A DNA stretch of 24,688 nt from a virus: positions 1 through 24,688 of the IMG/VR virus record IMGVR_UViG_3300040806_001388, one strand, 5' to 3'. The stretch's first letter is position 1. Each line of letters starts with the position of its first letter. Under the pieces are notes generated by a model that saw nothing but the letters and a program-made list of their open reading frames with translations, was not told the DNA's origin and searched no databases. The position numbers and the translations under genes were made by a program. Below, piece by piece: positions 3,076 through 24,688 of the stretch.

Positions 3076-3276
3076 TTATTCTTGTTTCATCTCCTCAATG
3101 TGAAAGGAATCCCAATCGGTATTTATTTCATAAAGCTTATGTGAAGGATCGGGTAGAGCGTCAATCGCCCAATCCTCGACCCAATCCAATTCTTCCTCTT
3201 TAGAAAGGTTGTCAGGAATCTCAATCTCAGCGGAATAGTTGTGGAACTCGGTCCAAAAAACTTTTACTTTCTTCAT
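3076..3276 (-). CDS. Small acidic hypothetical protein, 66 aa
   Basis: Begins MKKVKVFWTEFHNYSAEIEI and is acidic and Trp-rich (WVEDWAIDALPDP). It starts six bases after the stop of the Cys-rich gene, with no Shine-Dalgarno or promoter of its own, so translational coupling is likely. Its opening (short basic strand, then Glu/Trp-rich helix) resembles other small proteins in the array, but the family is not recognised. It is the last gene of the minus-strand array. Confidence 0.65.
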   Translation of the reverse strand: MKKVKVFWTEFHNYSAEIEIPDNLSKEEELDWVEDWAIDALPDPSHKLYEINTDWDSFHIEEMKQE

Positions 3277-3282
3277 TTTAGT

Positions 3283-3951
3283 TTAGTGTGAAAGGAATCG
3301 AACAGTCTTTTGAGTTGTCCAGCACAAGCCACAATCGGCGCAGGACTTTACTTTTCCAGTTTGCTCGGGGCAAGTAAAAGAGGAACCCTCGAAAGATTCT
3401 TCCGCAGCATACGATTGGAATGAATCCATCTTATCATAAGATTCATTCTTCGATAGACGGATATTACATCGGTCTGCGAATCGCATATTGAGAAGGCGAA
3501 TCTCATTATAGATGTTTCCCTTGCTCCGCGCAGTATAACCGAATAGCGCAAGCTTGTCTCCCCACTTGATCATTTGATCCGCCCAAAAGCGAACATAGGG
3601 GACGGAATAGAAATCACCTAGAACGTGCAATCGAATTAGAATGCCTTGCTTATGCTTTTTCATTAGCAATTCGATTTGCTTATTCAGGTTGTGCATTAGA
3701 TTGCGCGTATCGTATCGAAGCGCAAACGGCATGTTATCCCCATAGCAATCGTTCCAATGGTGGCACGATTTAGGGCACGTTGCGCGCTCTTGAAGCGAGA
3801 TAGAATAGATGCGCTTACCCTTATGCTTAGATGCCGTGATAACGTATCCGAGTTTGGCATTGTTCGATCCTGGTTTCAGGACCGAAAGATCGGAAGGCTT
3901 GACGGATTTGCGGTAGCGTGTGTGCGCGGGGCGCTTCAAGGTCTGATTCAT
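3283..3951 (-). CDS. GP88-like cysteine-rich phage protein, 222 aa
   Basis: The arrangement NAKLGYVITASKHKGKRIYS, then TCPKSC...CYGDN, then ILIRLHVLGDFYSVPYVRFW and a C-terminal CADCGLC cluster matches the phage 'gene product 88' family as I know it. That family is typified by a mycobacteriophage protein with conserved CP-x-x-C and HxxGDF motifs. The Cys clusters suggest a bound metal or iron-sulphur centre; the biochemical role is unknown. It is the longest gene of the minus array and the first of its cassette. Its start is fixed by a leaderless-type promoter (TATAAT, six bases, ATG). Confidence 0.7.
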   Translation of the reverse strand: MNQTLKRPAHTRYRKSVKPSDLSVLKPGSNNAKLGYVITASKHKGKRIYSISLQERATCPKSCHHWNDCYGDNMPFALRYDTRNLMHNLNKQIELLMKKHKQGILIRLHVLGDFYSVPYVRFWADQMIKWGDKLALFGYTARSKGNIYNEIRLLNMRFADRCNIRLSKNESYDKMDSFQSYAAEESFEGSSFTCPEQTGKVKSCADCGLCWTTQKTVRFLSH

Positions 3952-4258: not shown

Positions 4259-4495
4259 CTAGCGACTACCGCCGCCTTGAGTGGCAGCGTGAGCAGCCTG
4301 ACGACCAACATGGCGACCGCCAGCATACTCGCGAGGAAGTAGACGGCGCAGAGACTTGTATGCCTCTAGCGCGTTATCGACATCAGCCGAGCTAGCCTCG
4401 GGGTTGTGATAGATGTCTGCGAAAAGTTCACCTGCCTGGACAGAGAGACCTTGAATTTTCGCCGCGAGGGCGTTGCTGTAAAAGTTATCGTTCAT
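4259..4495 (-). CDS. Small hypothetical protein, 78 aa
   Basis: MNDNFYSNALAAKIQGLSVQ begins a mainly helical protein whose last 25 residues are Arg/Gly/His/Gln-rich (REYAGGRHVGRQAAHAATQ), suggesting an unstructured nucleic-acid-binding tail. A leaderless promoter fixes the start. The tmRNA-like RNA lies 38 bases past its stop and appears co-transcribed with it. The basic tail makes an RNA-related role conceivable, but no family is recognised. Confidence 0.7.
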   Translation of the reverse strand: MNDNFYSNALAAKIQGLSVQAGELFADIYHNPEASSADVDNALEAYKSLRRLLPREYAGGRHVGRQAAHAATQGGGSR

Positions 4496-4501
4496 GTGGG
4501 T

Positions 4502-4530
4502 ATTATACCTCAGAAGAGAAGAGAAGTAAA
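4502..4530 (-). promoter_or_regulatory. Leaderless promoter of the 78-aa gene and tmRNA-like RNA
   Basis: TTTACT, 17-base spacer, TATAAT, six bases to the ATG at 4495. No Shine-Dalgarno lies between the box and the start. Confidence 0.7.
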
Positions 4531-4548
4531 GAGAAAAGTGGGAGAAAT

Positions 4549-4773
4549 TTACCAGTCGCAGCCGAAGTCGTTTTCACACTCGAATTGCTCCTCATAGAAG
4601 CTATCGAGGAAGGCATCCTCAGCGTACCCGTAGGACTCATCCATGCCCATACCCGCAGAGGTGAAGGCGGATTCATCATCCCAGTCGAGAACATCATCGT
4701 CGAAGTCCTCGTCGGGTTGGGTGTAGCAGAAATCGAAGTCCTCTTCGTTATCGTAGTCGTTCATGTTTTCCAT
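4549..4773 (-). CDS. Extremely acidic small protein, 74 aa (DNA-mimic candidate)
   Basis: Counting residues gives 17 Asp and 11 Glu out of 74, with no Lys, Arg or His. It also has many Phe, Tyr and Trp (DEDFDDDVLDWDDE is typical). This composition is that of phage DNA-mimic proteins such as T7 Ocr or some anti-restriction and anti-CRISPR proteins, although I recognise no homology to any. The start at 4773 is set by a leaderless promoter; an upstream in-frame ATG at 4986 would place the promoter inside the gene. It has its own promoter within a four-gene cassette. Confidence 0.7.
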   Translation of the reverse strand: MENMNDYDNEEDFDFCYTQPDEDFDDDVLDWDDESAFTSAGMGMDESYGYAEDAFLDSFYEEQFECENDFGCDW

Positions 4774-4779
4774 GTGTGT

Positions 4780-4808
4780 ATTATACCCTAGAGAGAGGTG
4801 AAAGGCAA
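4780..4808 (-). promoter_or_regulatory. Leaderless promoter of the acidic protein gene
   Basis: TTGCCT, 17-base spacer containing CTCTCTCTAG, TATAAT, six bases to the ATG at 4773. Confidence 0.75.
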
Positions 4809-4814
4809 GAGAAA

Positions 4815-5051
4815 TCAGAGAGAAATGAGGTGGCGGATAGCCGAAAAGGGAAGCTCGCAACCCTCGCTCTCCCAGCGGTTTACGATTGCTTGAATGTGAT
4901 AGTGAGCGAGCGAGTCGGGCATATCCAACCCGTGGACGCTGTAGTCCGCGCAGGCATCCCGATAGGGTGCCCAGCTCAACCCGCAAGCGGAGTCGTCAAT
5001 GGCAAGGAGAAGAGCAGCGAGCTTGCTGGGCATATGAGGTGTTTGCTTCAT
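4815..5051 (-). CDS. Small hypothetical protein, 78 aa
   Basis: MKQTPHMPSKLAALLLAIDD begins a soluble-looking protein with a YRDACADYSVHGLDMPD segment. An ATG at 5060 is also in frame, but it is part of the -10 box itself (TATAATGG), so the real start must be the ATG at 5051, seven bases past the box. Family not recognised. Confidence 0.65.
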   Translation of the reverse strand: MKQTPHMPSKLAALLLAIDDSACGLSWAPYRDACADYSVHGLDMPDSLAHYHIQAIVNRWESEGCELPFSAIRHLISL

Positions 5052-5058
5052 GTGTTCC

Positions 5059-5086
5059 ATTATAACCTATTATCGGCAGAATGCAA
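5059..5086 (-). promoter_or_regulatory. Leaderless promoter of the 78-aa gene at 5051
   Basis: TTGCAT, 16-base spacer, TATAAT, seven bases to ATG. The spacer (TCTGCCGATAATAGG) is nearly identical to that of the promoter at 6694-6721, so the two promoters are copies of one another. Confidence 0.7.
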
Positions 5087-5105
5087 GGGTAAACTTTAGG
5101 AAATC

Positions 5106-5201
5106 CTAGAGAATCGCGCAGAGTTGGAAGAGAACTCCGAACGCGAGGAAGATACCGACGATCTGAATGATGTGGAGCAGGTTCACTAGTCTAACTTTCA
5201 T
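5106..5201 (-). CDS. Single-span membrane peptide, 31 aa
   Basis: MKVRLVNLLHIIQIVGIFLA continues hydrophobic to the end (FGVLFQLCAIL), giving one transmembrane helix with a short basic N-terminus. Although tiny, it has its own promoter placed exactly as for its neighbours (TATAAT, six bases, ATG) and is the first gene after a boundary element. Other cassettes also carry very short hydrophobic peptides. Confidence 0.65.
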   Translation of the reverse strand: MKVRLVNLLHIIQIVGIFLAFGVLFQLCAIL

Positions 5202-5207
5202 GCCCCC

Positions 5208-5235
5208 ATTATACCACACTTTGGCGAGAATGCAA
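5208..5235 (-). promoter_or_regulatory. Leaderless promoter of the 31-aa membrane peptide
   Basis: TTGCAT, 16-base spacer TCTCGCCAAAGTGTGG, TATAAT, six bases (GGGGGC) to the ATG at 5201. Confidence 0.75.
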
Positions 5236-5239
5236 GGGG

Positions 5240-5349
5240 AAAAGAAGAAAAAGATTTTGCTTGACAGGTCATAAACCCTTGTCAAATAAGGACTTAGCGC
5301 GGAGCCGCCGCCCGCTCCGCTTATAAAGCCCTGTAGAACAAGGACTTAG
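5240..5349 (-). terminator. Cassette-boundary element (tandem hairpins)
   Basis: Same architecture as at 4001-4110. A TAAGTCCTTG arm, the GCGGAGC/GCTCCGC hairpin, the TAAGTCCTT/AAGGGTTTA hairpin (loop ATTTGAC) and an alternative TTGACAAGG/CCTGTCAA stem are followed by CTTTTTCTTCTTTTCCCC and then the next promoter. Confidence 0.65.
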
Positions 5350-5392
5350 GAAGAAAAGTTTTTTGAAGAAAATAGAAGCTGGAGCCAAGTTC

Positions 5393-5530
5393 CCCAGCAT
5401 ATAACTATTATTGCACTCTCGACTTGGCACCCGTATGCATCCGAACGCGAGAGGTGGGGAGCGACCCCGTGCTAACCCTCCCATAAGGGAGGCGCTTTGA
5501 GCTTAATAACCTATTTATACTCGCTCAAAC
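5393..5530 (-). other. Highly structured unrecognised stretch at a cassette end
   Basis: Several perfect hairpins follow each other on the minus strand: CTCG/CGAG (5520-5533), CCTCCC-TTAT-GGGAGG, GGGG-TCGCT-CCCC, CTCTCG/CGAGAG around a 27-base loop, and GCTGGGG/CTCCAGC around a seven-base loop. No cloverleaf or known RNA family fits, and the one long frame through it has no ribosome-binding site or promoter. It occupies the cassette-end position taken by the tmRNA-like RNA elsewhere, so it may be another small RNA. Confidence 0.4.
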
Positions 5531-5537
5531 GAGTTGA

Positions 5538-5762
5538 CTACGCTTGCGTCATATATCGGTGATTCACACCGTTACCGCTAGTCCATTGCCGCGAGTTGCG
5601 ATAATGACGGTTCCACGCTTTCTTAGTAGCGTTGAGCGTACCTTGGTAGGTATAGCTTTGAGTTCGCAGATCGAAGATACGATAAGTGATGTTCCCATCA
5701 AGTTCGATGCGGGTCATGACTGCGTTCTGGTTCGAGCGGACAATGTTAGTGAAAATGTTCAT
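5538..5762 (-). CDS. Small hypothetical protein, 74 aa
   Basis: Begins MNIFTNIVRSNQNAVMTRIE and is basic and Asn/Tyr/Arg-rich (KKAWNRHYRNSRQW), with a strand-like centre (NITYRIFDLRTQSYTYQG). Unlike most of the array it has a Shine-Dalgarno (AAAGGA, 10 bases before ATG) and no adjacent -10 box, so it is probably read from the upstream gene's transcript. It is the last protein gene of its cassette. Confidence 0.65.
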   Translation of the reverse strand: MNIFTNIVRSNQNAVMTRIELDGNITYRIFDLRTQSYTYQGTLNATKKAWNRHYRNSRQWTSGNGVNHRYMTQA

Positions 5763-5858
5763 GTGTTTAGTTTCCTTTTGAGGGTGTAGTTAGTTAGTGT
5801 TTGGGCATCACACCCAATCGTAGGTTTCGAGGGATAACCTATAACCCTTTCTCTTATA

Positions 5859-6212
5859 CTAGGCTTTCGCTTCGATAGCCTTGTTCAGTTTGGTTTCGAT
5901 ATCCTCTTTGATAGCGTTCTGCTCATCGAGAATGTATTGAGCGTTACGCTCTTCTTGGTCGATCTTTTCGATCCAAGCGTAGTGCTTGGCACGACGAGCT
6001 TCAGCAGACTGAGGACCGCTTCCGAGAATCTTCTTGGCAGCGATAATGCTCTTCTTGATCTCACCCAGCTCTTCGACGAGCGGGGCAAGTTCGGGATCGT
6101 TTGCCGCATCGGCTTTCAGTTGCTTCATGCGAAGCCGTTCAAGCTTGGCTTCGTGCTCGGCAATAAGTTCAGCGGGAGTGCGTTGAGTGCGTTTCTTAGT
6201 GGTGTTTTCCAT
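5859..6212 (-). CDS. Coiled-coil hypothetical protein, 117 aa
   Basis: After a basic N-terminus (MENTTKKRTQRTPAELIAEH), residues about 15-65 and 75-117 form two long charged helices with heptad-like Leu/Ile spacing, consistent with a coiled coil. No enzymatic motif is present. A leaderless promoter fixes the ATG at 6212. About 95 bases separate it from the next gene, more than elsewhere in the array. Confidence 0.7.
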   Translation of the reverse strand: MENTTKKRTQRTPAELIAEHEAKLERLRMKQLKADAANDPELAPLVEELGEIKKSIIAAKKILGSGPQSAEARRAKHYAWIEKIDQEERNAQYILDEQNAIKEDIETKLNKAIEAKA

Positions 6213-6219
6213 GTGTGTT

Positions 6220-6248
6220 ATTATACCTTAGAGGGTAGCGTTTGTCAA
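6220..6248 (-). promoter_or_regulatory. Leaderless promoter of the coiled-coil gene
   Basis: Consensus TTGACA, 17-base spacer, consensus TATAAT, seven bases to the ATG at 6212. It is one of the two best sigma70 matches in the array. Confidence 0.8.
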
Positions 6249-6267
6249 TAGGAAAGTGGAGAAATTT

Positions 6268-6483
6268 CTAGAAGTATCCTTCGTCGTAGAGTTCAGCGAA
6301 CATGGGGTCATCATCGGCCCATGCATCGCAGCAGTCGGTGAACGCTTCAACGGGCGAGAAGCCGTTAGCGAACAGGTCGTGAATCATCGTCAGATCAGGC
6401 ATATCTTCGTGCCCGAAGCCGAACGTGGCAAGGCAAAGGGAATCGAGTTGGTTGTACCAGTCTTCGTAGGTCATCTTGTTCAT
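6268..6483 (-). CDS. Small acidic phage protein, 71 aa
   Basis: MNKMTYEDWYNQLDSLCLAT begins an acidic, helix-rich protein with a FANGFSPVEAFTDCCDAW block and a DDDPMF turn. The pattern looks like a conserved small phage protein, but I cannot attach a family name. A leaderless promoter sets the start, and its -35 box lies within the 3' end of the preceding gene. Confidence 0.7.
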   Translation of the reverse strand: MNKMTYEDWYNQLDSLCLATFGFGHEDMPDLTMIHDLFANGFSPVEAFTDCCDAWADDDPMFAELYDEGYF

Positions 6484-6489
6484 GCGTGT

Positions 6490-6518
6490 ATTATACCCTA
6501 TTGGTTAGAGGTTGTCAA
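6490..6518 (-). promoter_or_regulatory. Leaderless promoter of the 71-aa gene
   Basis: TTGACA, 17-base spacer, TATAAT, six bases to ATG. The -35 overlaps the last codons of the upstream gene. Confidence 0.8.
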
Positions 6519-6687
6519 GCGTCTTTTGGAGATTTTGCTTCATCTTTCGACGAACATACCTGCGGTCAAGGGGCTTCGCCTTGCTCGGCTTCACGCGCCA
6601 CAGGTTACAGCACTTACATCCGAATCCGCCGATGCCGTGGCGAGCGCGGAGAGCGCGGTCTGTGTTCGTGTCGTTCATCGTCTTCAT
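6505..6687 (-). CDS. Small basic protein with a CxxCC-like motif, 60 aa
   Basis: MKTMNDTNTDRALRARHGIG is followed by GFGCKCCNLW and a strongly basic tail (KPSKAKPLDRRYVRRKMKQN). Three closely spaced Cys and many Arg/Lys suggest metal or nucleic-acid binding. It is first in its cassette, with a leaderless promoter after a boundary element. Confidence 0.65.
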   Translation of the reverse strand: MKTMNDTNTDRALRARHGIGGFGCKCCNLWRVKPSKAKPLDRRYVRRKMKQNLQKTLDNL

Positions 6688-6693
6688 GCCCCC

Positions 6694-6721
6694 ATTATAC
6701 CCTATTATCGGCAGAAAGCAA
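6694..6721 (-). promoter_or_regulatory. Leaderless promoter of the 60-aa gene
   Basis: TTGCTT, 16-base spacer, TATAAT, six bases (GGGGGC) to ATG. Confidence 0.75.
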
Positions 6722-6740
6722 GGAGCAACTGAAGGAAATA

Positions 6741-6820
6741 AAATCTTTTTTTCTTCTTGACAGGTCGTAAGTGCTTGTCAAATAAGGACTTAGCGCGGAG
6801 CCGCCGCCCGCTCCGCTTAT
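6741..6820 (-). terminator. Cassette-boundary element (tandem hairpins)
   Basis: The GC hairpin is followed by TAAGTCCTT/AAGCACTTA (one C-C mismatch) and a perfect TTGACA/TGTCAA inverted repeat. Here the tract beyond is A-rich on the minus strand, so simple intrinsic termination is less convincing than at the other copies. Confidence 0.55.
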
Positions 6821-6847
6821 AGAAGCAAGAACTTTCTTGGATTTATT

Positions 6848-6898
6848 TTAGAGTTCGTAGAGTACGAACAGCAGGATAAGAAGACCCCAGACAGCCAT
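6848..6898 (-). CDS. Possible 16-aa hydrophobic peptide
   Basis: MAVWGLLILLFVLYEL starts on the stop of the preceding gene (TAATG overlap), a classic coupling signal, and is almost wholly hydrophobic. It ends its cassette just before a boundary element, like the 21-aa peptide at 7529-7594. Its size limits certainty. Confidence 0.4.
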   Translation of the reverse strand: MAVWGLLILLFVLYEL

Positions 6899-7161
6899 TA
6901 CTCGTTCCTAGTGTGATGATCCCGCAGGAATCCATACTCTTGGTTCGACCGCTGGAGTCGAGCAAGATAATCATCGTAGTTCTCACGAACCTTGATGATA
7001 GCGTCCGTGTGAGACGGAGCAGAGACTCGGATGAGGTTTCCCTTGTTTCCAAGGTGAAGATTGAACCACTTGGTAACTCCATCATCACGAAGGTTAGCGG
7101 AGAGGAAGAGAGCGTCGATGGTCGTGCCATCGGTAAGATCGAGGTTGTTCATCTTGTTCAT
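6898..7161 (-). CDS. Small hypothetical protein, 87 aa
   Basis: MNKMNNLDLTDGTTIDALFL begins a mixed strand/helix protein (VTKWFNLHLGNKGNLIRVSA, then a charged helix). The pattern suggests a small alpha/beta fold like others in the array. The start is fixed by a leaderless promoter. Family not recognised. Confidence 0.7.
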   Translation of the reverse strand: MNKMNNLDLTDGTTIDALFLSANLRDDGVTKWFNLHLGNKGNLIRVSAPSHTDAIIKVRENYDDYLARLQRSNQEYGFLRDHHTRNE

Positions 7162-7167
7162 GCGTGT

Positions 7168-7196
7168 ATTATACCAGAGTTAGGGGAGAAGGTCAA
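7168..7196 (-). promoter_or_regulatory. Leaderless promoter of the 87-aa gene
   Basis: TTGACC, 17-base spacer, TATAAT, six bases to ATG. It overlaps the end of the upstream gene. Confidence 0.8.
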
Positions 7197-7374
7197 GGGT
7201 TTTGTAGGTATTTTTCTTTTCGATGTGAACTTCTTTGTGCTCGAACCCGAGATCCTCTACCAGATGATAGAGACGCTTTCCCGCGCTCTCTTCGTCAAGG
7301 TGGACCGTATCAACGTACTGCTGAGAGTTGAGCGTCATGAGGACCAACCAAACCGAGTTCTGTTCTTTCTTCAT
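7180..7374 (-). CDS. Small protein, 64 aa, paralogue of the gene at 8121-8315
   Basis: MKKEQNSVWLVLMTLNSQQY then a charged helix and LVEDLGFEHKEVHIE. It aligns along its whole length with the 64-aa protein at 8121-8315: a hydrophobic strand, a D-[ST]-[IV]-H segment, ES, a basic helix, LV-[ED]-D-x-GF, then EV-x-IE. Both are first genes of their cassettes. The fold is probably strand-helix-strand; function unknown. Confidence 0.7.
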   Translation of the reverse strand: MKKEQNSVWLVLMTLNSQQYVDTVHLDEESAGKRLYHLVEDLGFEHKEVHIEKKNTYKTLDLLP

Positions 7375-7380
7375 GCGTGT

Positions 7381-7408
7381 ATTATACCACACTCTGGCGA
7401 GAATGCAA
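7381..7408 (-). promoter_or_regulatory. Leaderless promoter of the 64-aa gene at 7374
   Basis: TTGCAT, 16-base spacer TCTCGCCAGAGTGTGG, TATAAT, six bases to ATG. It is almost identical to the promoter at 5208-5235. Confidence 0.8.
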
Positions 7409-7414
7409 GGGGAA

Positions 7415-7497
7415 AACAAAAAAAAGAATTTGCTTGACACGACCTAAGTGTCTGTCAAATAAGGACTTAGCGCGGAGCCGCCGCCCGCTCCGCTTAT
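7415..7497 (-). terminator. Cassette-boundary element (tandem hairpins)
   Basis: The GC hairpin is followed by a perfect TTGACA/TGTCAA inverted repeat and CTTTTTTTTGTTTTCCCC on the minus strand, then the next promoter. Confidence 0.65.
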
Positions 7498-7528
7498 CGG
7501 AGCAAGGGAATTCCGAGAAAACTTTGCC

Positions 7529-7594
7529 CTACCCTACTAGCGCATAGAGCACAAGCCCCAGCACTAGTAGAGCGAGAACGCGCTTATGAATCAT
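7529..7594 (-). CDS. Small membrane peptide, 21 aa
   Basis: MIHKRVLALLVLGLVLYALV has a basic N-terminus and a single hydrophobic span. Its ATG overlaps the preceding stop as ATGA, indicating translational coupling. It is the last gene of its cassette. Confidence 0.5.
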   Translation of the reverse strand: MIHKRVLALLVLGLVLYALVG

Positions 7595-7896
7595 GCGCCT
7601 GCCTCGAAGTGATTAGGAGTTCCGCTTTGGTTTTTGATTGACCAAGCATCATAAAGACTAATAGCTCCAGCTCGAACGGCAGGACGCTCATTACTTGCCA
7701 CGAATTCGAATTGACGACGCAAGAGTTTTGCTTCATCTTCCGTGAGGGCAATGTCTACCTCATCCTTATCGCTATTCTTCCTGTAAATGCTGACCAGGAC
7801 TGAGAAGATAGGCGTAGCATCTTCATAACACTCTGCGAGCATCATTCCAATCGTAGCCTCAAGCTTTTCCATTTTCATGTTTTGGTAACGAATCAT
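7591..7896 (-). CDS. Hypothetical protein, 101 aa
   Basis: Mostly helical, with the segments EATIGMMLAECYEDATPIFS and ALTEDEAKLLRRQFEFVASN. It starts one base past the preceding stop with a good GGAG (seven-base spacer) and no promoter of its own, so it is expressed with the 63-aa gene. Family not recognised. Confidence 0.7.
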   Translation of the reverse strand: MIRYQNMKMEKLEATIGMMLAECYEDATPIFSVLVSIYRKNSDKDEVDIALTEDEAKLLRRQFEFVASNERPAVRAGAISLYDAWSIKNQSGTPNHFEAGA

Positions 7897-7897
7897 T

Positions 7898-8089
7898 CTA
7901 GTTCTCCATTTGGTGGTAGTAGAGAGAAGGGCTTTCCTCGAACTGTTCGATAACTTGATCGAAGGGCTTATCGAGGTAGATGGACTTGATCACGTTGTCT
8001 CCATCGAAGAGACTCACCATAGTCGAGTCGCCAGCAGAGGTAAAGAGTAGCGCGGAGTACTTGTCCATGATGTAGCGTTTGATCTTCAT
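7898..8089 (-). CDS. Small hypothetical protein, 63 aa
   Basis: MKIKRYIMDKYSALLFTSAG starts at a leaderless promoter. The pattern is strands (ALLFTSAGDSTMVSLFDG) followed by an acidic helix. The stop precedes the next gene by one base, giving a two-gene operon. Confidence 0.7.
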   Translation of the reverse strand: MKIKRYIMDKYSALLFTSAGDSTMVSLFDGDNVIKSIYLDKPFDQVIEQFEESPSLYYHQMEN

Positions 8090-8095
8090 GTGTGT

Positions 8096-8124
8096 ATTAT
8101 ACCTTAGAGAGAGGAGAAGGTCAA
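8096..8124 (-). promoter_or_regulatory. Leaderless promoter of the 63-aa gene
   Basis: TTGACC, 17-base spacer with CTCTCTCTAAGG, TATAAT, six bases to ATG. Confidence 0.8.
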
Positions 8125-8315
8125 GAAGAAAGTTGAGAAAGAGAGCAGATAGGACGAGGTTCGATCTCGACCTCACCTTCTGGGAATCCACAATCGTCTA
8201 CGAGGTACTTCTTCCGCCTTTCGGATGACTCCCTCGAATCATGGATGGAGTCGAGGCACTCATAGTTATCAGCGGCGAGGAGGACGACGTACAAGGTGAG
8301 AGGGGTGTCTTTCAT
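8121..8315 (-). CDS. Small protein, 64 aa, paralogue of the gene at 7180-7374
   Basis: MKDTPLTLYVVLLAADNYEC then a charged helix and LVDDCGFPEGEVEIE. It aligns without gaps with the 64-aa protein at 7180-7374. Both are first in their cassettes with closely related promoters, so gene and promoter may have duplicated together. Confidence 0.7.
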   Translation of the reverse strand: MKDTPLTLYVVLLAADNYECLDSIHDSRESSERRKKYLVDDCGFPEGEVEIEPRPICSLSQLSS

Positions 8316-8321
8316 GCCCCT

Positions 8322-8349
8322 ATTATAACACACTCTCGAAGGATTGCAA
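8322..8349 (-). promoter_or_regulatory. Leaderless promoter of the 64-aa gene at 8315
   Basis: TTGCAA, 16-base spacer TCCTTCGAGAGTGTGT, TATAAT, six bases to ATG. Confidence 0.75.
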
Positions 8350-8352
8350 GAG

Positions 8353-8452
8353 GAAAAAAGAAAAAGATGTGAACGTAAGTGCTTGCTAGATAAGGACTTA
8401 GCGCGTAGCCGCCGCCCGCTCCGCTTATAAAGCCCTGTAGAACAAGGACTTA
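8353..8452 (-). terminator. Cassette-boundary element (tandem hairpins)
   Basis: It has the TAAGTCCTTG arm, a GC hairpin with one changed base (GCTACGC) that weakens one pair, TAAGTCCTT/AAGCACTTA, then CTTTTTCTTTTTTCC on the minus strand. The TTGACA/TGTCAA part is lost. Confidence 0.6.
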
Positions 8453-8468
8453 TAAGCGAAAAGATTTT

Positions 8469-8762
8469 CTAGTTTGTGCTTGCTTCCCTAGGGAGATTCC
8501 AAGGGTAGAGCGTCAGGTATAGATCAGAAATAGTTTCGAATTGGCTACCGTAAAAGTAGCCCAATTCAGAGACGAGACCGTGAACCATTCCAAACATCTC
8601 GATCTCGCCATCGGGACGCTCTTCGATCTCGTAGATCTCCCAAGCCCATCCTGACGTACTGTGGAAGACTTCCCCAAGGGGTTTCTTCGGCTTTTCGCCA
8701 TCAGTCGAGCCGATAGGCGTCTTCGCCATCTGGGCGAGTTCTTTCAGTTCGTTCATTTCCAT
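8469..8762 (-). CDS. Small acidic hypothetical protein, 97 aa
   Basis: MEMNELKELAQMAKTPIGST leads into a strand-rich middle (GWAWEIYEIEERPDGEIEMF) and ends with an aromatic segment. It starts two bases after the preceding stop with AAGGAG seven bases before ATG and no own promoter. Family not recognised. Confidence 0.7.
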   Translation of the reverse strand: MEMNELKELAQMAKTPIGSTDGEKPKKPLGEVFHSTSGWAWEIYEIEERPDGEIEMFGMVHGLVSELGYFYGSQFETISDLYLTLYPWNLPREASTN

Positions 8763-8764
8763 AA

Positions 8765-8968
8765 CTACTCTCCTTGAGTGTTAGCGTAGAAGAATTTGGC
8801 AATGTCGTCATCCGTGAGTCCATCGCCCATGTGATCGTACATATCCTGCTCACAAGCGAGGCAGTATGCCCCAGGCTCGTAGTGGGAGGTCGTGCAAGCC
8901 TTGCAAGCCTTTTCGGCAACGGATTCGAAGAGGTCGTTCATCATTTCGAGGTATTCGATTTTCTTCAT
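8765..8968 (-). CDS. Small zinc-ribbon-like protein, 67 aa
   Basis: MKKIEYLEMMNDLFESVAEK is followed by CKACTTSHYEPGAYCLAC, two CxxC pairs ten residues apart, the spacing of a small zinc ribbon. An acidic helix follows (GDGLTDDDIAKFF). The start is set by a leaderless promoter; a longer frame from 9127 would run through that promoter. A DNA- or RNA-binding or adaptor role is possible. Confidence 0.7.
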   Translation of the reverse strand: MKKIEYLEMMNDLFESVAEKACKACTTSHYEPGAYCLACEQDMYDHMGDGLTDDDIAKFFYANTQGE

Positions 8969-8974
8969 GCGTGT

Positions 8975-9003
8975 ATTATACCCTAGAGAGAGGTTCGGGT
9001 CAA
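8975..9003 (-). promoter_or_regulatory. Leaderless promoter of the zinc-ribbon-like gene
   Basis: TTGACC, 17-base spacer with CTCTCTCTAGGG, TATAAT, six bases to ATG. Confidence 0.8.
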
Positions 9004-9203
9004 GAGAATTCGGGAAGAAGTTCTTCGATGTAGATGGAGAGAGGACCATCAGGGTCTTCGACTGAGAGAAGGTCGGTGAGGTCCTCTTTGATGTCGAGGG
9101 CCTCTTGCTTGGTCGCGCACCTGGCATAGGGCCAGGAGACGAGCTTGTCGTCGTTGTGAATGCGGACTTGCCAATAATGGGTAGTGATCGGGGTCAACTT
9201 CAT
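9000..9203 (-). CDS. Small hypothetical protein, 67 aa
   Basis: MKLTPITTHYWQVRIHNDDK then a helix (TKQEALDIKEDLTDLLSV) and a final strand (LSIYIEELLPEFS), similar in layout to the 64-aa paralogue pair though sequence similarity is weak. It is first in its cassette with a leaderless promoter. Confidence 0.65.
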   Translation of the reverse strand: MKLTPITTHYWQVRIHNDDKLVSWPYARCATKQEALDIKEDLTDLLSVEDPDGPLSIYIEELLPEFS

Positions 9204-9209
9204 GCGTGT

Positions 9210-9237
9210 ATTATACCATGTCCTGGTGAGAAAGCAA
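9210..9237 (-). promoter_or_regulatory. Leaderless promoter of the 67-aa gene at 9203
   Basis: TTGCTT, 16-base spacer TCTCACCAGGACATGG, TATAAT, six bases to ATG. Confidence 0.75.
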
Positions 9238-9240
9238 GGG

Positions 9241-9350
9241 GAAAAAAGAAAAAAGATTTTGCTTGACGAGTCGTAAGTGCTTGCTACATAAGGACTTAGC
9301 GCGGAGCCGCCGCCCGCTCCGCTTATAAAGCCCTGTAGAACAAGGACTTA
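9241..9350 (-). terminator. Cassette-boundary element (tandem hairpins)
   Basis: Full-length copy with the TAAGTCCTTG arm, GCGGAGC/GCTCCGC, TAAGTCCTT/AAGCACTTA and CTTTTTTCTTTTTTCCCC on the minus strand. Confidence 0.65.
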
Positions 9351-9359
9351 GAGCGTCAA

Positions 9360-9641
9360 TTATTTTTCGTATTGAACACGGTATTCGTCAGCACGATACC
9401 AACGGTCGCCACAGCACTCACAGTCCAGACCGCTCTCGATGCCTTGGAAGTAGATGCCAGCGTATTTCTGGACAAGCTCGTCAGCCTCATCGGTAGACTC
9501 AGCCATGACCCAAACATCGACCTGCTGGTCTTGCCAATCGTAGGCAGCGAACACACCACCGAGGTCAGCGGGACCAGTCCACTCGGGGTAGTCATAGCTA
9601 CCGCCGCTGCTGTTCTGAGTGTAGTAGAACTTCTTTTTCAT
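9360..9641 (-). CDS. Conserved phage protein with a CECCGDRWY motif, 93 aa
   Basis: MKKKFYYTQNSSGGSYDYPE, a WVMAESTDEADELVQKYAGI helix, then YFQGIESGLDCECCGDRWY. The combination of a Tyr-rich start, 'ADEA' helix, GIYF and D-C-x-C-C-G-D-R-W matches an uncharacterised small protein family I associate with many large phages. The Cys triplet could bind metal. The start is set by a leaderless promoter. Confidence 0.7.
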   Translation of the reverse strand: MKKKFYYTQNSSGGSYDYPEWTGPADLGGVFAAYDWQDQQVDVWVMAESTDEADELVQKYAGIYFQGIESGLDCECCGDRWYRADEYRVQYEK

Positions 9642-9647
9642 GCGTGT

Positions 9648-9676
9648 ATTATATCAGGCGACCTTGGTGCGGACAA
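9648..9676 (-). promoter_or_regulatory. Leaderless promoter of the 93-aa gene
   Basis: TTGTCC, 17-base spacer, TATAAT, six bases to ATG. The upstream gene's stop abuts the -10 box, so the -35 lies inside that gene. Confidence 0.7.
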
Positions 9677-9833
9677 GGTTTTTATTGGATTTTTTGTACT
9701 CTCGAACGAGTCGAGTGATGTACTTACCAACGCCCTTGTGGGTCTTGGTGCTACCGTCCTCGAAGGTGACGGTGAGGGAGTAGTAAGCCCCGAAGCCGAG
9801 GAGACGTTGTTCGTGGAGGTGGGTAACTTTCAT
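9654..9833 (-). CDS. Small basic hypothetical protein, 59 aa
   Basis: MKVTHLHEQRLLGFGAYYSL, strands (LTVTFEDGSTKTHKGVG) and a basic C-terminal helix (KYITRLVREYKKSNKNLVRT). It is the first gene of the whole minus-strand array, with a leaderless promoter. Basic charge suggests nucleic-acid contact, but this is a guess. Confidence 0.65.
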   Translation of the reverse strand: MKVTHLHEQRLLGFGAYYSLTVTFEDGSTKTHKGVGKYITRLVREYKKSNKNLVRTKVA

Positions 9834-9839
9834 GCGTGT

Positions 9840-9867
9840 ATTATACCATGCCGAGACGAGAATGCAA
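9840..9867 (-). promoter_or_regulatory. Leaderless promoter of the 59-aa gene
   Basis: TTGCAT, 16-base spacer TCTCGTCTCGGCATGG, TATAAT, six bases to ATG. Confidence 0.75.
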
Positions 9868-18279: not shown

Positions 18280-21252
18280 ATGGCTGAATCTAGAGATAAA
18301 CTCGTATATATAGTCCTTGATGAGTTAAATCGTCCAATATCTCTTGGAGGTATGGAGGATGGAGATTTTGTATCTGATAGTGTGCTTCCAGAAGGCGTGC
18401 GAGATGTTTGCTCAGTAGTAATAGATACTAGTGGTGATTGGACTTCAGTGTATACTACAGTAGAAGCAGCAAGTGGTATTTGGGATATTGGAGGAGGTAC
18501 TCCAATTGATATTGCTGATTGGGAGCAAGTTTCTACTGTTGTTGTTGATTCTAGTGGTGATTGGGATAATACATTTACTAAGGTAGATGCTGCCTCTGGA
18601 GATTGGGACGGAGCATATGCTAGTGCATTAACCGCTAGTGCTGTAATTAGCGATAACCGACTCGTTTGGGAGTCTGGAGGATCTCCATCAGCAACAGGTT
18701 TTGAAGATTGGAATAATGCTTTTAATAAAGTAGATTCAACTAGTGATGGGTGGGACGGTACTTATACCTCCGTAAATGGTGCTAGTGGAACTTGGGACGG
18801 TACTTATACCTCCGTAAATGGTGCTAGTGGAACTTGGGACGGAGTATATGCTTCTGTAAACCCTGTTAGTGGAACTTGGGATGAAGCAGCAACGATACTG
18901 GACACAAGCGATGCTAACTTCCTTGGAGGATTAACTCCTACTCTTTCCAATGATTTAACTATAAATGATGGAATACAGATAGAAGGTCTAGGAGTTCTTT
19001 CTTTAAGTTCTCAAGGAAATCTTTCTTTAAGTTCTGGGGGTTCCATATTTGTTAGTTCTACAAATAAGATAGATATAAACCCAAACGCTAATGTAAACTT
19101 AATTCCTACTACTGGAAATGTTAGGTTAGTTCCAGATGTTGGAAATATACAAATAAAATCAGTTGATTCTGTATTCCTTTCTGGAGTAGGTGTTAGTTGT
19201 ATTTCTAATGATGGAAACTTTACAATTGGAACTAATGCGGATAATCAAGAATTTGCTTTAAAAGATACTCTAAACGACGCTATTTCAACCAAATCTACAG
19301 TAGACGCCAATAGTGCTAACTGGATTAATGCCTTTACTAAGGTAGATTCCGCTAGTGATGGATGGGACGGTACTTATACCTCCGTAAATGGTGCTAGTGG
19401 AACTTGGGATAATGCCTTTACTAAAGTAAATTCCGCTAGTGATGGATGGGACGGTACTTATACCTCCGTAAATGGTGCTAGTGGAACTTGGGATAATGCC
19501 TTTACTAAGGTAGATTCCGCTAGTGATGGATGGGACGGTACTTATACCTCCGTAAATGGTGCTAGTGGAACTTGGGACGGTACTTATACCTCCGTAAATG
19601 GTGCTAGTGGAACTTGGGATGCTGCTTATTCTAGCGATTTATTCCCATCAGCAGCAGGTTTTGATGGTTGGAATAGTACAAAATCTACTGTAGATGCCGA
19701 TAGTGCAAACTGGGATGCTGCTTATACTGCTATAAACGATAACGCTGATACTTGGACTTCAACATTTAACACTACTTTAAATACAAGTGCTACTTGGGCA
19801 TCTAGTGTAGCAAGCTCTATTGGGTGCTATATAGGATCTTCTGTTGCTATTTCTGGATTTGGAGATGGAGATACTGATTTTACACCAGGAAATAATCAGT
19901 ATCTTGCTCTTAATACTAAGGAAGAGAGGATGACTTGGAGATATCCTAGATTTATCCAAAGTGCAAATCAATTATTAGTAGAAACAATACCAGAAGTAGA
20001 GGACTTACCTAATGTAGAATCATTAGGTATGGATGTTGGTTTATCGTTAAGTGGTTGGTTCCAACAAACAGAATATGATATTACAACAACTCTTGGTCTT
20101 CCCGATAATTATAGTATAGATATTGATTTTGATCAATCTCAACAACAAACAGCAAATCTAACAGCAGTATCCGCTAATGGATCTACTTTGGGACTTAACT
20201 TCAGTAATATAGCCCCAGGAAGAAGAGTAAACTTAACATTAATTAATCCAACATATACTATAACTACTATCCCACTAACCGCTGGAGCTACTTGGATGAC
20301 CACTCCTCTAAGTAAGATGGGAATTGGAGAAGTTGTAGAAGTTATAATTTATTCTAGGGGATCTACTGCTTCTGATTTATACTTGTACTCTACACAAATA
20401 GAATCAGATGAAGTAGTTAATGAATCTGGTGTTGCTGGTGCTACTGTTACGGATGCATTAGATCAACTTAGTTCCGATATTGTAACAGATCACGGTGCTC
20501 TTACTGGTTTATCAGACGACGATCACCCACAATACGTTCTGAATTCCACCAACCTTGAACTAAGCTCTGCTTTTGAGAGTGTATCCTCTACTGTTTTTGA
20601 TAACTCTGGGTCTTGGGGAGGTGGAGGAGGAGTAACAGATCACGGTGCTCTTACTGGTTTATCGGACGACGATCATACTCAATACCATAATGATACAAGA
20701 GCAGATACTTGGCTTGCTACCAAAGGTTCTGATAATTTAGATAATGATTCTGGTGTTGCTGGTGCTACTGTTACAGCAGCTTTAGACCAACTAGATTCAG
20801 ACATAGCAGCAAAGAGAGATGCAGCATCATACATAGCTAGGCAAAACTCCGCTACTCAAGACCTAAACGGAACTAATGTTGCAGCAAATTGGGGCCAAGC
20901 AGTAGCATCTAACGGTTCAGATTTATCGTGGGACGTAGCCAATCCTAGTAGAATCAGTATAGCAACAACTGGTGACTATAGAGTTACATTCAACTTAGCA
21001 GCTACTAGTACAGCAGTAAGATCAAACATTATCGCTAGATTACGAGTAAATGGAACTACATTTAGAGGCCCAATAGGTTCTAGTGGTTATATTAGAAGCA
21101 GTAGTTCTCATGATAATGCTAGTGTTCATGCTGCTTTTATTCATCCATTTACTGCTGGTGATTACATAGAGATAGTAGCAAACCGAGAAGCTGCCGCTGG
21201 AAACTGGACTACGGTAAATGGGGCTTGTTCTATTTCATTAGAAAAGTTATAG
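18280..21252 (+). CDS. Repeat-rich tail fibre with C1q-like tip, 990 aa
   Basis: Residues about 45-220 and 348-445 are built of 14-residue units starting with Trp, of two types: WDGTYTSVNGASGT and WDNAFTKVDSASDG. They alternate like a fibrous shaft. DHGALTGLSDDDH, a motif common in phage tail fibres, occurs at about residues 737 and 787, each near a copy of SGVAGATVTxALDQL. The last 145 residues (SYIARQNSATQDLNG onward, with GDYRVTFNLAATST and GDYIEIVANRE) have the jelly-roll pattern of a C1q/TNF-like trimer, probably the receptor-binding tip. It starts two bases after the previous gene with no obvious Shine-Dalgarno. Confidence 0.8.
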   Translation: MAESRDKLVYIVLDELNRPISLGGMEDGDFVSDSVLPEGVRDVCSVVIDTSGDWTSVYTTVEAASGIWDIGGGTPIDIADWEQVSTVVVDSSGDWDNTFTKVDAASGDWDGAYASALTASAVISDNRLVWESGGSPSATGFEDWNNAFNKVDSTSDGWDGTYTSVNGASGTWDGTYTSVNGASGTWDGVYASVNPVSGTWDEAATILDTSDANFLGGLTPTLSNDLTINDGIQIEGLGVLSLSSQGNLSLSSGGSIFVSSTNKIDINPNANVNLIPTTGNVRLVPDVGNIQIKSVDSVFLSGVGVSCISNDGNFTIGTNADNQEFALKDTLNDAISTKSTVDANSANWINAFTKVDSASDGWDGTYTSVNGASGTWDNAFTKVNSASDGWDGTYTSVNGASGTWDNAFTKVDSASDGWDGTYTSVNGASGTWDGTYTSVNGASGTWDAAYSSDLFPSAAGFDGWNSTKSTVDADSANWDAAYTAINDNADTWTSTFNTTLNTSATWASSVASSIGCYIGSSVAISGFGDGDTDFTPGNNQYLALNTKEERMTWRYPRFIQSANQLLVETIPEVEDLPNVESLGMDVGLSLSGWFQQTEYDITTTLGLPDNYSIDIDFDQSQQQTANLTAVSANGSTLGLNFSNIAPGRRVNLTLINPTYTITTIPLTAGATWMTTPLSKMGIGEVVEVIIYSRGSTASDLYLYSTQIESDEVVNESGVAGATVTDALDQLSSDIVTDHGALTGLSDDDHPQYVLNSTNLELSSAFESVSSTVFDNSGSWGGGGGVTDHGALTGLSDDDHTQYHNDTRADTWLATKGSDNLDNDSGVAGATVTAALDQLDSDIAAKRDAASYIARQNSATQDLNGTNVAANWGQAVASNGSDLSWDVANPSRISIATTGDYRVTFNLAATSTAVRSNIIARLRVNGTTFRGPIGSSGYIRSSSSHDNASVHAAFIHPFTAGDYIEIVANREAAAGNWTTVNGACSISLEKL
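18709..18876 (+). repeat. 42-bp tandem repeats in the fibre gene, array 1
   Basis: Four 42-bp units begin with TGG at 18709, 18751, 18793 and 18835. Units 2 and 3 are identical, and the flanking units are diverged versions. Confidence 0.85.
19321..19614 (+). repeat. 42/84-bp tandem repeats in the fibre gene, array 2
   Basis: Seven 42-bp units begin at 19321, 19363, 19405, 19447, 19489, 19531 and 19573. They form three nearly identical 84-bp pairs (type A then type B) plus one extra B. B units are identical to those of array 1, which implies recent copying between the arrays. Confidence 0.85.
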
Positions 21253-23378: not shown

Positions 23379-24125
23379 ATGATAGAACCAAATCAACAAA
23401 ATATTGAAGCACAACAAGAAATTATTAATGCTATTCTTAATGATGTTCCAGAAGATACAGCAGTAGAAATTGCACTCCCATCAGAGTGCAGAATTTATAC
23501 ATTACCTGATCCAGAAGGCCCCATAACTATACGTCCTATGACCTTTGAAGATGAGAGAATTATGCTTAGTTCAAAAGGAAATGACGATCCTATTAATTTA
23601 ATTTTACAAAAATGTGTTACAAATTTAAATATTCAAGAAATCCTTTCAGCAGATAAATTATATCTGATTATGAAATTAAGAGAATTATCGTATGGAGATG
23701 ATTATCATACAACTATAATTTGTCCTTCTTGTAAAAAGGATAATAATGTTATAATTAAACTTTCTGATTTAGCTGTTAAGGGTGCCGACGACTCTTTGGT
23801 TGAACCTAAAGAAATAACTTTACCTATATTAAATAAAAAAGTAAAAATAAATTTTCCAAGAGTAAAACATGAGAAATATTTTTCAGATCCAGAACAAGGA
23901 CTAACTCATCTTTGGAGATTTATTCCTGAGATAGATGGACATACAGATAAAGCTATTATCGCAAAAGTTTTACAAAAATTACCTCTTAAAGACGTAAAAA
24001 CAATCCTAAAACAGCTTAAAACTGATTTTGGATTAAATACTAAAATTAAATTTGTCTGTTCTGACTGCGGAGGGGCTTCTTTACAAGAATTGCCAATTAA
24101 TGCAAGTTTTTTCGACGTGAACTAG
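23379..24125 (+). CDS. 26: Baseplate hub subunit (gp26-like, T4_baseplate family), 248 aa
   Basis: The pattern SECRIYTLPDPEGPITIRPM, FEDERIM, then LRELSYGDDYHTTIICPSCK and a C-terminal CSDCGG matches the T4 baseplate protein family of gp26, a component of the baseplate hub. Two CxxC pairs (C115/C118 and C227/C230) probably bind zinc. A good ribosome-binding site (AAGGAG, six bases) precedes ATG. The frame ends at TAG 24123, ten bases past a T TTT TTC heptamer where a -1 shift would extend the protein. Confidence 0.8.
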   Translation: MIEPNQQNIEAQQEIINAILNDVPEDTAVEIALPSECRIYTLPDPEGPITIRPMTFEDERIMLSSKGNDDPINLILQKCVTNLNIQEILSADKLYLIMKLRELSYGDDYHTTIICPSCKKDNNVIIKLSDLAVKGADDSLVEPKEITLPILNKKVKINFPRVKHEKYFSDPEQGLTHLWRFIPEIDGHTDKAIIAKVLQKLPLKDVKTILKQLKTDFGLNTKIKFVCSDCGGASLQELPINASFFDVN

Positions 24126-24295
24126 AAGAAGTAATTGATACTGATTCCCTTCTTCTAGAAGCCTATATACTAGTGAAAAGAGCAAACTTTACATATTCTG
24201 ATGTAAAGACAATGACTCGTTCTGAACGAACAGTATTTCTAAAGATACTAAAAGATGAGGTAGAAAGAGAAAATAATGCAAGTAAACACCACTAA
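24101..24295 (+). CDS. Start-less downstream frame, probably a -1 extension of the gp26-like protein
   Basis: This frame opens right after an in-frame TAA (24098-24100). It has no ATG before 24212 and no GTG before 24173, and neither has a ribosome-binding site. Yet it encodes a normal-looking helical sequence: RRELEEVIDTDSLLLEAYIL, then KRANFTYSDVKTMTRSERTV and FLKILKDEVEREN. Translation by -1 frameshifting at 24107-24113 would add 60 residues to 245 residues of the hub protein, giving about 305 aa. This resembles the G/GT arrangement of tail-assembly chaperones. An independent initiation at GTG 24173 is possible but unsupported. Confidence 0.65.
   Translation, partial: CKFFRRELEEVIDTDSLLLEAYILVKRANFTYSDVKTMTRSERTVFLKILKDEVERENNASKHH
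24107..24113 (+). promoter_or_regulatory. Candidate -1 ribosomal frameshift site
   Basis: The heptamer T TTT TTC lies in the correct phase of the gp26-like frame (AGT TTT TTC GAC). Slipping back one base gives TTT TTT CGA CGT GAA, entering an open frame that runs to 24295. A strong downstream stem is not obvious. Confidence 0.65.
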
Positions 24296-24688
24296 TGTAG
24301 TTGATAGACACAATAGACCCACAGTACTACAGAAAGTAGCACTAAGAACTTTCTTTATTAACGATGGAGAATACTATGACCCTTACGATATTAGTGGGGT
24401 TACGGTGTTTACTAAGTATGCAAATACTTCACCTAGTTCTATCTTATCAAATAACTTAGTAGCATCCTCAGTACCTGAGAGCACTATCCTAATGCATTTT
24501 ACTGCTTCTGCTAATGATGCTGGAGCTGCTCTTGATCCTACTAGCTACAACCCTGCTACAGATCCAGCCTGTTTGAGTGGTATTTACCGTATGGCTCAAG
24601 GAGAATACGTTTGTATTCTAGACGGAACACAAGATATTAGCGGAGTTTATAACTTACATGGATCTTCTCTTACGGTTGCTAATGGAGC
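24276..24688 (+). CDS. Putative virion protein, N-terminal part (runs off the window)
   Basis: ATG at 24276 overlaps the end of the frameshift frame by 20 bases. The 137 visible residues (MQVNTTNVVDRHNRPTVLQK, then YDPYDISGVTVFTKYAN and GIYRMAQGEYVCILDG) look like a beta-rich structural protein. They follow the hub gene directly, so a baseplate or tail role is likely. No family recognised. Confidence 0.65.
   Translation, partial: MQVNTTNVVDRHNRPTVLQKVALRTFFINDGEYYDPYDISGVTVFTKYANTSPSSILSNNLVASSVPESTILMHFTASANDAGAALDPTSYNPATDPACLSGIYRMAQGEYVCILDGTQDISGVYNLHGSSLTVANG

Follow-up and report, generated by a model that had tools for sequence, protein, structure and literature searches.

A very probable programmed -1 frameshift joins a gp26-like gene to a gp51-like extension in an IMG/VR virus

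The shift site of the gpG/gpGT tail assembly chaperone gene in phage lambda is G GGA AAG. This one gene is described as yielding a short and a long chaperone through a low-level -1 shift near its 3′ end, a layout that the gp26-like locus described here very probably shares; gp26 is unlike lambda gpG, however, in having an extra Zn-ribbon-like part. T4 gp26 belongs to the same Pfam family as the gene at our locus and the C-terminus of T4 gp51 resembles our extension, but T4 encodes them in two distinct genes, one on each strand. The frameshift is reportedly conserved in several T4-like groups. As relayed by the papers that cite it, the study of Vladimirov, Gautam & Davidson 2022 (Virology 566:9-15) describes poly-T slippery sequences in TAC-N of T4-like phages, together with separate short and long genes in some of these phages; the TAC-N/TAC-NC pair, as portrayed there, is like our locus in both family and arrangement. 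For Pseudomonas phage Adele (Vandenendeviridae / Andersonviridae), the published account (PMC12846349) reports a -1 shift with a GTTTTT motif near the TAC-N 3′ end and a -1 frame without stops in all alleles. That arrangement is like ours, whereas in Adele the tape measure gene lies directly next and the phage family is different. The Atkins review states that the gene pair uses -1, -2 or +1 shifts in different phages and lists T4 as an exception. The frameshifted chaperone class is already in print for T4-like phages, and the present locus is a fresh example of it, not a novel type.

The DNA analyzed was a viral stretch of 24,688 nucleotides (IMG/VR record IMGVR_UViG_3300040806_001388, positions 1 to 24,688), referred to throughout as the window. 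The features at the end of its gp26-like gene are as follows:

23379-24125, plus strand: gp26-like gene in the zero frame (putative TAC-N), 248 aa, matching PF12322 and phrog_150
24107-24113, plus strand: slippery heptamer T TTT TTC, in phase (AGT TTT TTC), read directly from the letters
24123-24125, plus strand: zero-frame stop TAG, 9 bases past the last base of the heptamer
24101-24295, plus strand: open -1 frame; its post-slip part, 24113-24292, encodes 60 residues (putative TAC-C, gp51-like) and is followed by TAA at 24293-24295
24276-24688, plus strand: next gene, beginning within the 3′ end of the extension and running off the window

The gp26-like gene ends with the codons GCA AGT TTT TTC GAC GTG AAC TAG. 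The -1 frame opens at TGC (24101), directly 3′ of a TAA at 24098-24100, and its possible starts are limited to a GTG and an ATG that lie well downstream. A shifted product would combine 245 zero-frame residues with the 60 of the extension, giving 305 aa, and the peptide ANFTYSDVK is present in the predicted extension. The initial annotation had described a start-less -1 frame of good coding quality beside the end of the gene, a T TTT TTC in the right phase just before the stop, and a shifted product of about 305 aa that would carry a 60-residue helical extension; each of these is borne out by the coordinates above and by the substitution pattern and four-helix model reported below. The IMG/VR contig L001 matches the window with no difference across the 1310 bases compared. 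The next gene, which reaches 315 aa in L001, was not recognized as a tape measure protein, and no obvious tape measure gene was seen within the 3.5 kb that follow in L001.

The gp26-like gene matches PF12322 at 69.9 bits (gathering cut-off 24.5) and the baseplate hub family phrog_150 at E 1.3e-23. An AlphaFold2 model of its product (mean pLDDT 89) suggests a TAC-like N half and a Zn-ribbon-like part within residues 106-244. Residues 25-105 of the model align with the HK97 tail assembly chaperone (2OB9) at Z 5.8 (rmsd 3.4, 73 aligned), a modest match that is the sole row of Z 5 or more among 336 chains and lies below the Z 8 advised by the tool. A Foldseek search of pdb with this model returned nothing at E up to 0.001, and neither gp26 nor the extension had a trustworthy sequence-level match to solved structures. 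Two CxxC pairs, C115/C118 and C227/C230, are conserved in gp26 (23379-24125). Comparison of the profile of the window-type gp26 set (39 rows) with T4 gp26 alone gave a weak match (9.5%). The gene order in LIS04 and immuto is sheath, tube, gp26, extension and annotated tape measure, and SP-15 has a putative tail protein at the tape measure place after its gp26 extension; this tube/gp26/tape measure order, typical but not universal, was unseen in the window, L001 and several jumbo phages. Together with published work, the evidence here points to the gp26 family as the tail assembly chaperone of T4-like phages, ‘baseplate hub’ being an older label. The best reading of the gp26-like gene is TAC-N, with TAC-NC as its shifted product, the two together being the T4-like G/GT pair. 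The initial annotation had seen the logic of such pairs copied in a baseplate protein: the G/GT-type pair stands, whereas the copying into an unrelated protein does not, since the evidence indicates that the gp26 family is itself the chaperone, and the surprise expressed there is therefore mostly already explained.

Comparison of homologues, which the initial annotation had proposed, shows that both the heptamer and the frame are kept. Scanning IMG/VR with an alignment of four sequences yielded 80 loci, of which L031, whose contig ends at residue 213, was removed; the remaining 79 window-type loci, including one identical to the window (L030), represent 60 distinct extension proteins. All 79 retain an in-phase TTTTTTC or, in about a third of them, TTTTTTT, as well as a -1 frame that runs on for 50 codons or more beyond the zero-frame stop. 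Among the cyanophage-type relatives, collected with S-RIM8 gp26 as query, TTTTTTC is present in 80/80 and the open -1 frame in 79/80, the exception (L131) retaining the heptamer on a contig cut 40 bases past the stop of the gene. The same heptamer and -1 frame occur in Aeromonas 65.2, S-RIM8, RaK2, GAP32, BF, Munch, PA5oct and others. After removal of L104 and L109, which have indels, the six T are invariant in all 58 distinct gap-free sequences (from the 60), although TTC also codes for Phe. We also assembled a mixed panel of 24 genes, which includes the window and omits T4 (L010) and the named duplicates L001, L002, L009, L012 and L014. The T6 heptamer is found at 17 of the 24 gene ends and in phase at none of the other 6028 codons, and the 17 genes that have it are exactly those that continue in the -1 frame.

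An open -1 frame in a single sequence is too weak as evidence: a frame this long past the stop was also found in 44 of 179 control ORFs (other ORFs of at least 120 aa at the loci of 60 relatives). Such frames are common among the controls because genes overlap in these compact genomes. In contrast, an in-phase T6 heptamer at most 25 codons from the stop was found in none of the 179 control ORFs, versus all 79 window-type relatives. Conservation among relatives, rather than the single sequence, settles that the signal is more than chance. We consider it very probable, and far ahead of the alternatives, that T TTT TTC is the site of a programmed -1 frameshift yielding short and long chaperone forms.

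The extension is a conserved coding sequence. Across 123 pairs of related extensions, substitutions past the zero-frame stop fall on -1 codon positions 1, 2 and 3 in the ratio 1029:633:2264. Its predicted structure comprises four helices (mean pLDDT 89.6), and a structural neighbour is Gp51 of P-HM1, with a probability of 0.98 but an E value of 0.26; no solved match of Z 2 or more was present among 15 chains. In the alignment of 36 extensions, hand-picked like that of gp26 from the 60 distinct window-type loci, 25 have a match to the gp51 family phrog_634 (‘baseplate hub assembly catalyst’) with E no higher than 0.1, the best at 7.3e-5 and the window's own weakly at 0.032. T4 gp51, a separate gene of 249 aa, ends in a segment with the pattern of the extension (residues 208-244), weakly matched by hhalign at 33.6% with the cyanophage set and 2.2% with the window set. 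These comparisons suggest that the extension corresponds to gp51.

Transcriptional slippage can occur on runs of T, and slippage of this kind, rather than of the ribosome, might give the -1 product. The loci with TTTTTTT would suit it. Most loci, however, have just six T followed by C, phased with the codons exactly as tandem tRNA slippage requires (T TTT TTC), and lambda-type chaperones are described as shifting ribosomally. We therefore regard a transcriptional origin as very unlikely.

Less likely again is that the downstream frame is a separate small gp51-like gene with a start of its own, either through coupling to the TAG or from an internal GTG or ATG. It is annotated as such in S-RIM8 (3232-3369) and GAP32 (3298-3474), an ATG overlaps or adjoins the zero-frame stop in L013 and in the 595-kb uncultured phage L003, and T4 gp51 stands alone as a gene. 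The S-RIM8 ‘baseplate hub assembly catalyst’ (gp51) is, however, the 3′ part of the -1 frame, and it and the small hypothetical gene of GAP32 are internal-start fragments of that frame. Conserved coding begins already at the heptamer (FFRREL...), and almost all of the possible starts lie further downstream. No start is conserved: those in the first 30 codons are scattered over eight positions among the 60 distinct extensions, the commonest at codons 21 and 22 (12 and 18 sequences) lying inside the second predicted helix, and the -1 frames of L103 and L106 (two of the 79 window-type loci) and of phages PA5oct and SRB7757 contain no ATG, GTG or TTG at all. A separate gene would also leave the fixation of the in-phase T6 without a reason.

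The idea that one continuous gene was split by a sequencing or assembly mistake in the T run is refuted for the family and has a negligible chance: error-prone as T runs are, every one of the 159 contigs in the two large sets keeps the run, L001 is identical to the window, and the split recurs in all 79 window-type contigs, in every cyanophage-type contig with full coverage and in isolated phages with finished genomes.

Under the programmed frameshift, most ribosomes would read on in the zero frame and produce the short form of 248 aa (TAC-N, known as gp26). A minority would slip by -1 on T TTT TTC, the two Phe tRNAs re-pairing on TTT TTT, and so bypass the TAG to produce the 305-aa long form (TAC-NC) with its 60-residue helical C-terminal domain, the putative counterpart of gp51. 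On the model of lambda gpG/gpGT, the tape measure protein would be coated by the common N part, while recruitment of the tail tube protein would fall to the rare C domain.

Two further elements lie 3′ of the heptamer:

24122-24158, plus strand: possible hairpin with perfect 10-bp arms (24122-24131 and 24149-24158), with an 8-base spacer to the heptamer; not conserved
24158-24169, plus strand: GAA GCC TAT ATA (E-A-Y-I in the -1 frame), that is GAAGCCTATATA, under unusually strong synonymous constraint

We rejected the hairpin as a conserved stimulator: its fold z is -3.42 for a 55-nt stretch but modest in longer ones (-1.49 for 24114-24193; -0.72 for 24060-24200), and no pair was predicted in the consensus fold of 23 relatives. 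Many relatives carry a GGAGGG approximately 36-39 nt upstream of the heptamer, too far for the usual SD-like spacing. Among columns in which more than 80% of sequences share one residue, the codon-constraint scan of the 58 sequences flagged only the slippery site, Leu codon 5, three of the four codons of GAAGCCTATATA and one codon overlapping the start of the next gene. GAAGCCTATATA lies approximately 50 bases 3′ of the heptamer, and its codons are nearly invariant: GAA in 49 of 49 sequences with E, GCC in 54 of 56 with A, TAT in 54 of 58 with Y and ATA in 56 of 56 with I. A promoter reading of CCTATATA was rejected: the window contains 8 copies of CTATATA where 5.05 are expected, and the enrichment of TATAAATA, one mismatch allowed, is only mild. 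The constraint on GAAGCCTATATA is explained neither by a conserved hairpin nor by a clear promoter, and in the -1 clade the element may serve as an additional cis signal.

The window has repetitive features elsewhere. On the minus strand at 4478-9852 is a repeated cassette with 11 copies of a 37-nt unit (family D4), approximately GGTATAATACACGCATGAA as read on that strand, in which a TATAAT box ends a few bases short of the ATG that opens each small ORF in a series; these cassettes look like repeated promoters for leaderless or nearly leaderless small genes. A 990-aa ORF (18280-21252), with tandem 42/84-nt repeats coding for WDGTYTSVNGASGT units, is probably a fibre or adhesin-like structural protein. 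Within the 281-aa ORF at 518-1363, tandem repeats of 18/36/72 nt (756-1100) encode GNAQVFGNA-type hexapeptide repeats, which we take to be like those of left-handed beta-helix proteins.

The seven panel genes without the T6 heptamer (SP-15, LIS04, GXN1, Mel-JY01, Slickus01, immuto and a 484-kb phage) have their extension in the +1 frame. A +1 extension is likewise seen in 78 of 80 IMG/VR loci of the Flavobacterium-phage type (immuto-type), L249 and one more being cut or ambiguous. Six of the seven panel members have a Pro or NCC codon at the gene end (CCT GAC, CCT AAG, CCT ACC, CCC CGA, GCC CGA and ACC CGA), which, from the aligned gene ends, is likely the +1 shift site; Slickus01 differs from the other six at this candidate site. 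The +1 frame could be reached by either a +1 or a -2 movement. The N parts of the -1 and +1 sets are clearly homologous (hhalign 98.7%). The comparison of their C parts is suggestive only (23.0% and 28.8%), and the case for a shared origin of the two C-domains rests chiefly on the homology of the N part, on where the C-domains lie and on the motif pattern they have in common.

We give even weight to the proposal, and to its opposite, that a homologous chaperone gene changed its recoding mode repeatedly, between -1, +1 and separate genes, with GAAGCCTATATA as a possible further cis signal of the -1 clade. On that reading, -1 shifting on T TTT TT[C/T] would be the mode of the window's clade, cyanophages, Aeromonas 65.2 and many jumbo phages; the C-domain would be in the +1 frame in Bacillus/Listeria/Streptococcus, Flavobacterium, Microcystis and Alishewanella phages; and T4 would have separate genes. 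The +1 arrangement is possibly less known than the -1 class.

These findings correct the annotation of many T4-like phages, in which the ‘baseplate hub’ gp26 and a missing or mis-started ‘gp51’ would be one recoded chaperone gene. Database annotation usually misses the link between the gp26-like gene and its extension, as pipelines omit the extension or begin it at an internal codon. Switching between -1, +1 and split arrangements within one family, if true, would provide a natural series for the gain and replacement of recoding signals at a preserved protein ratio.
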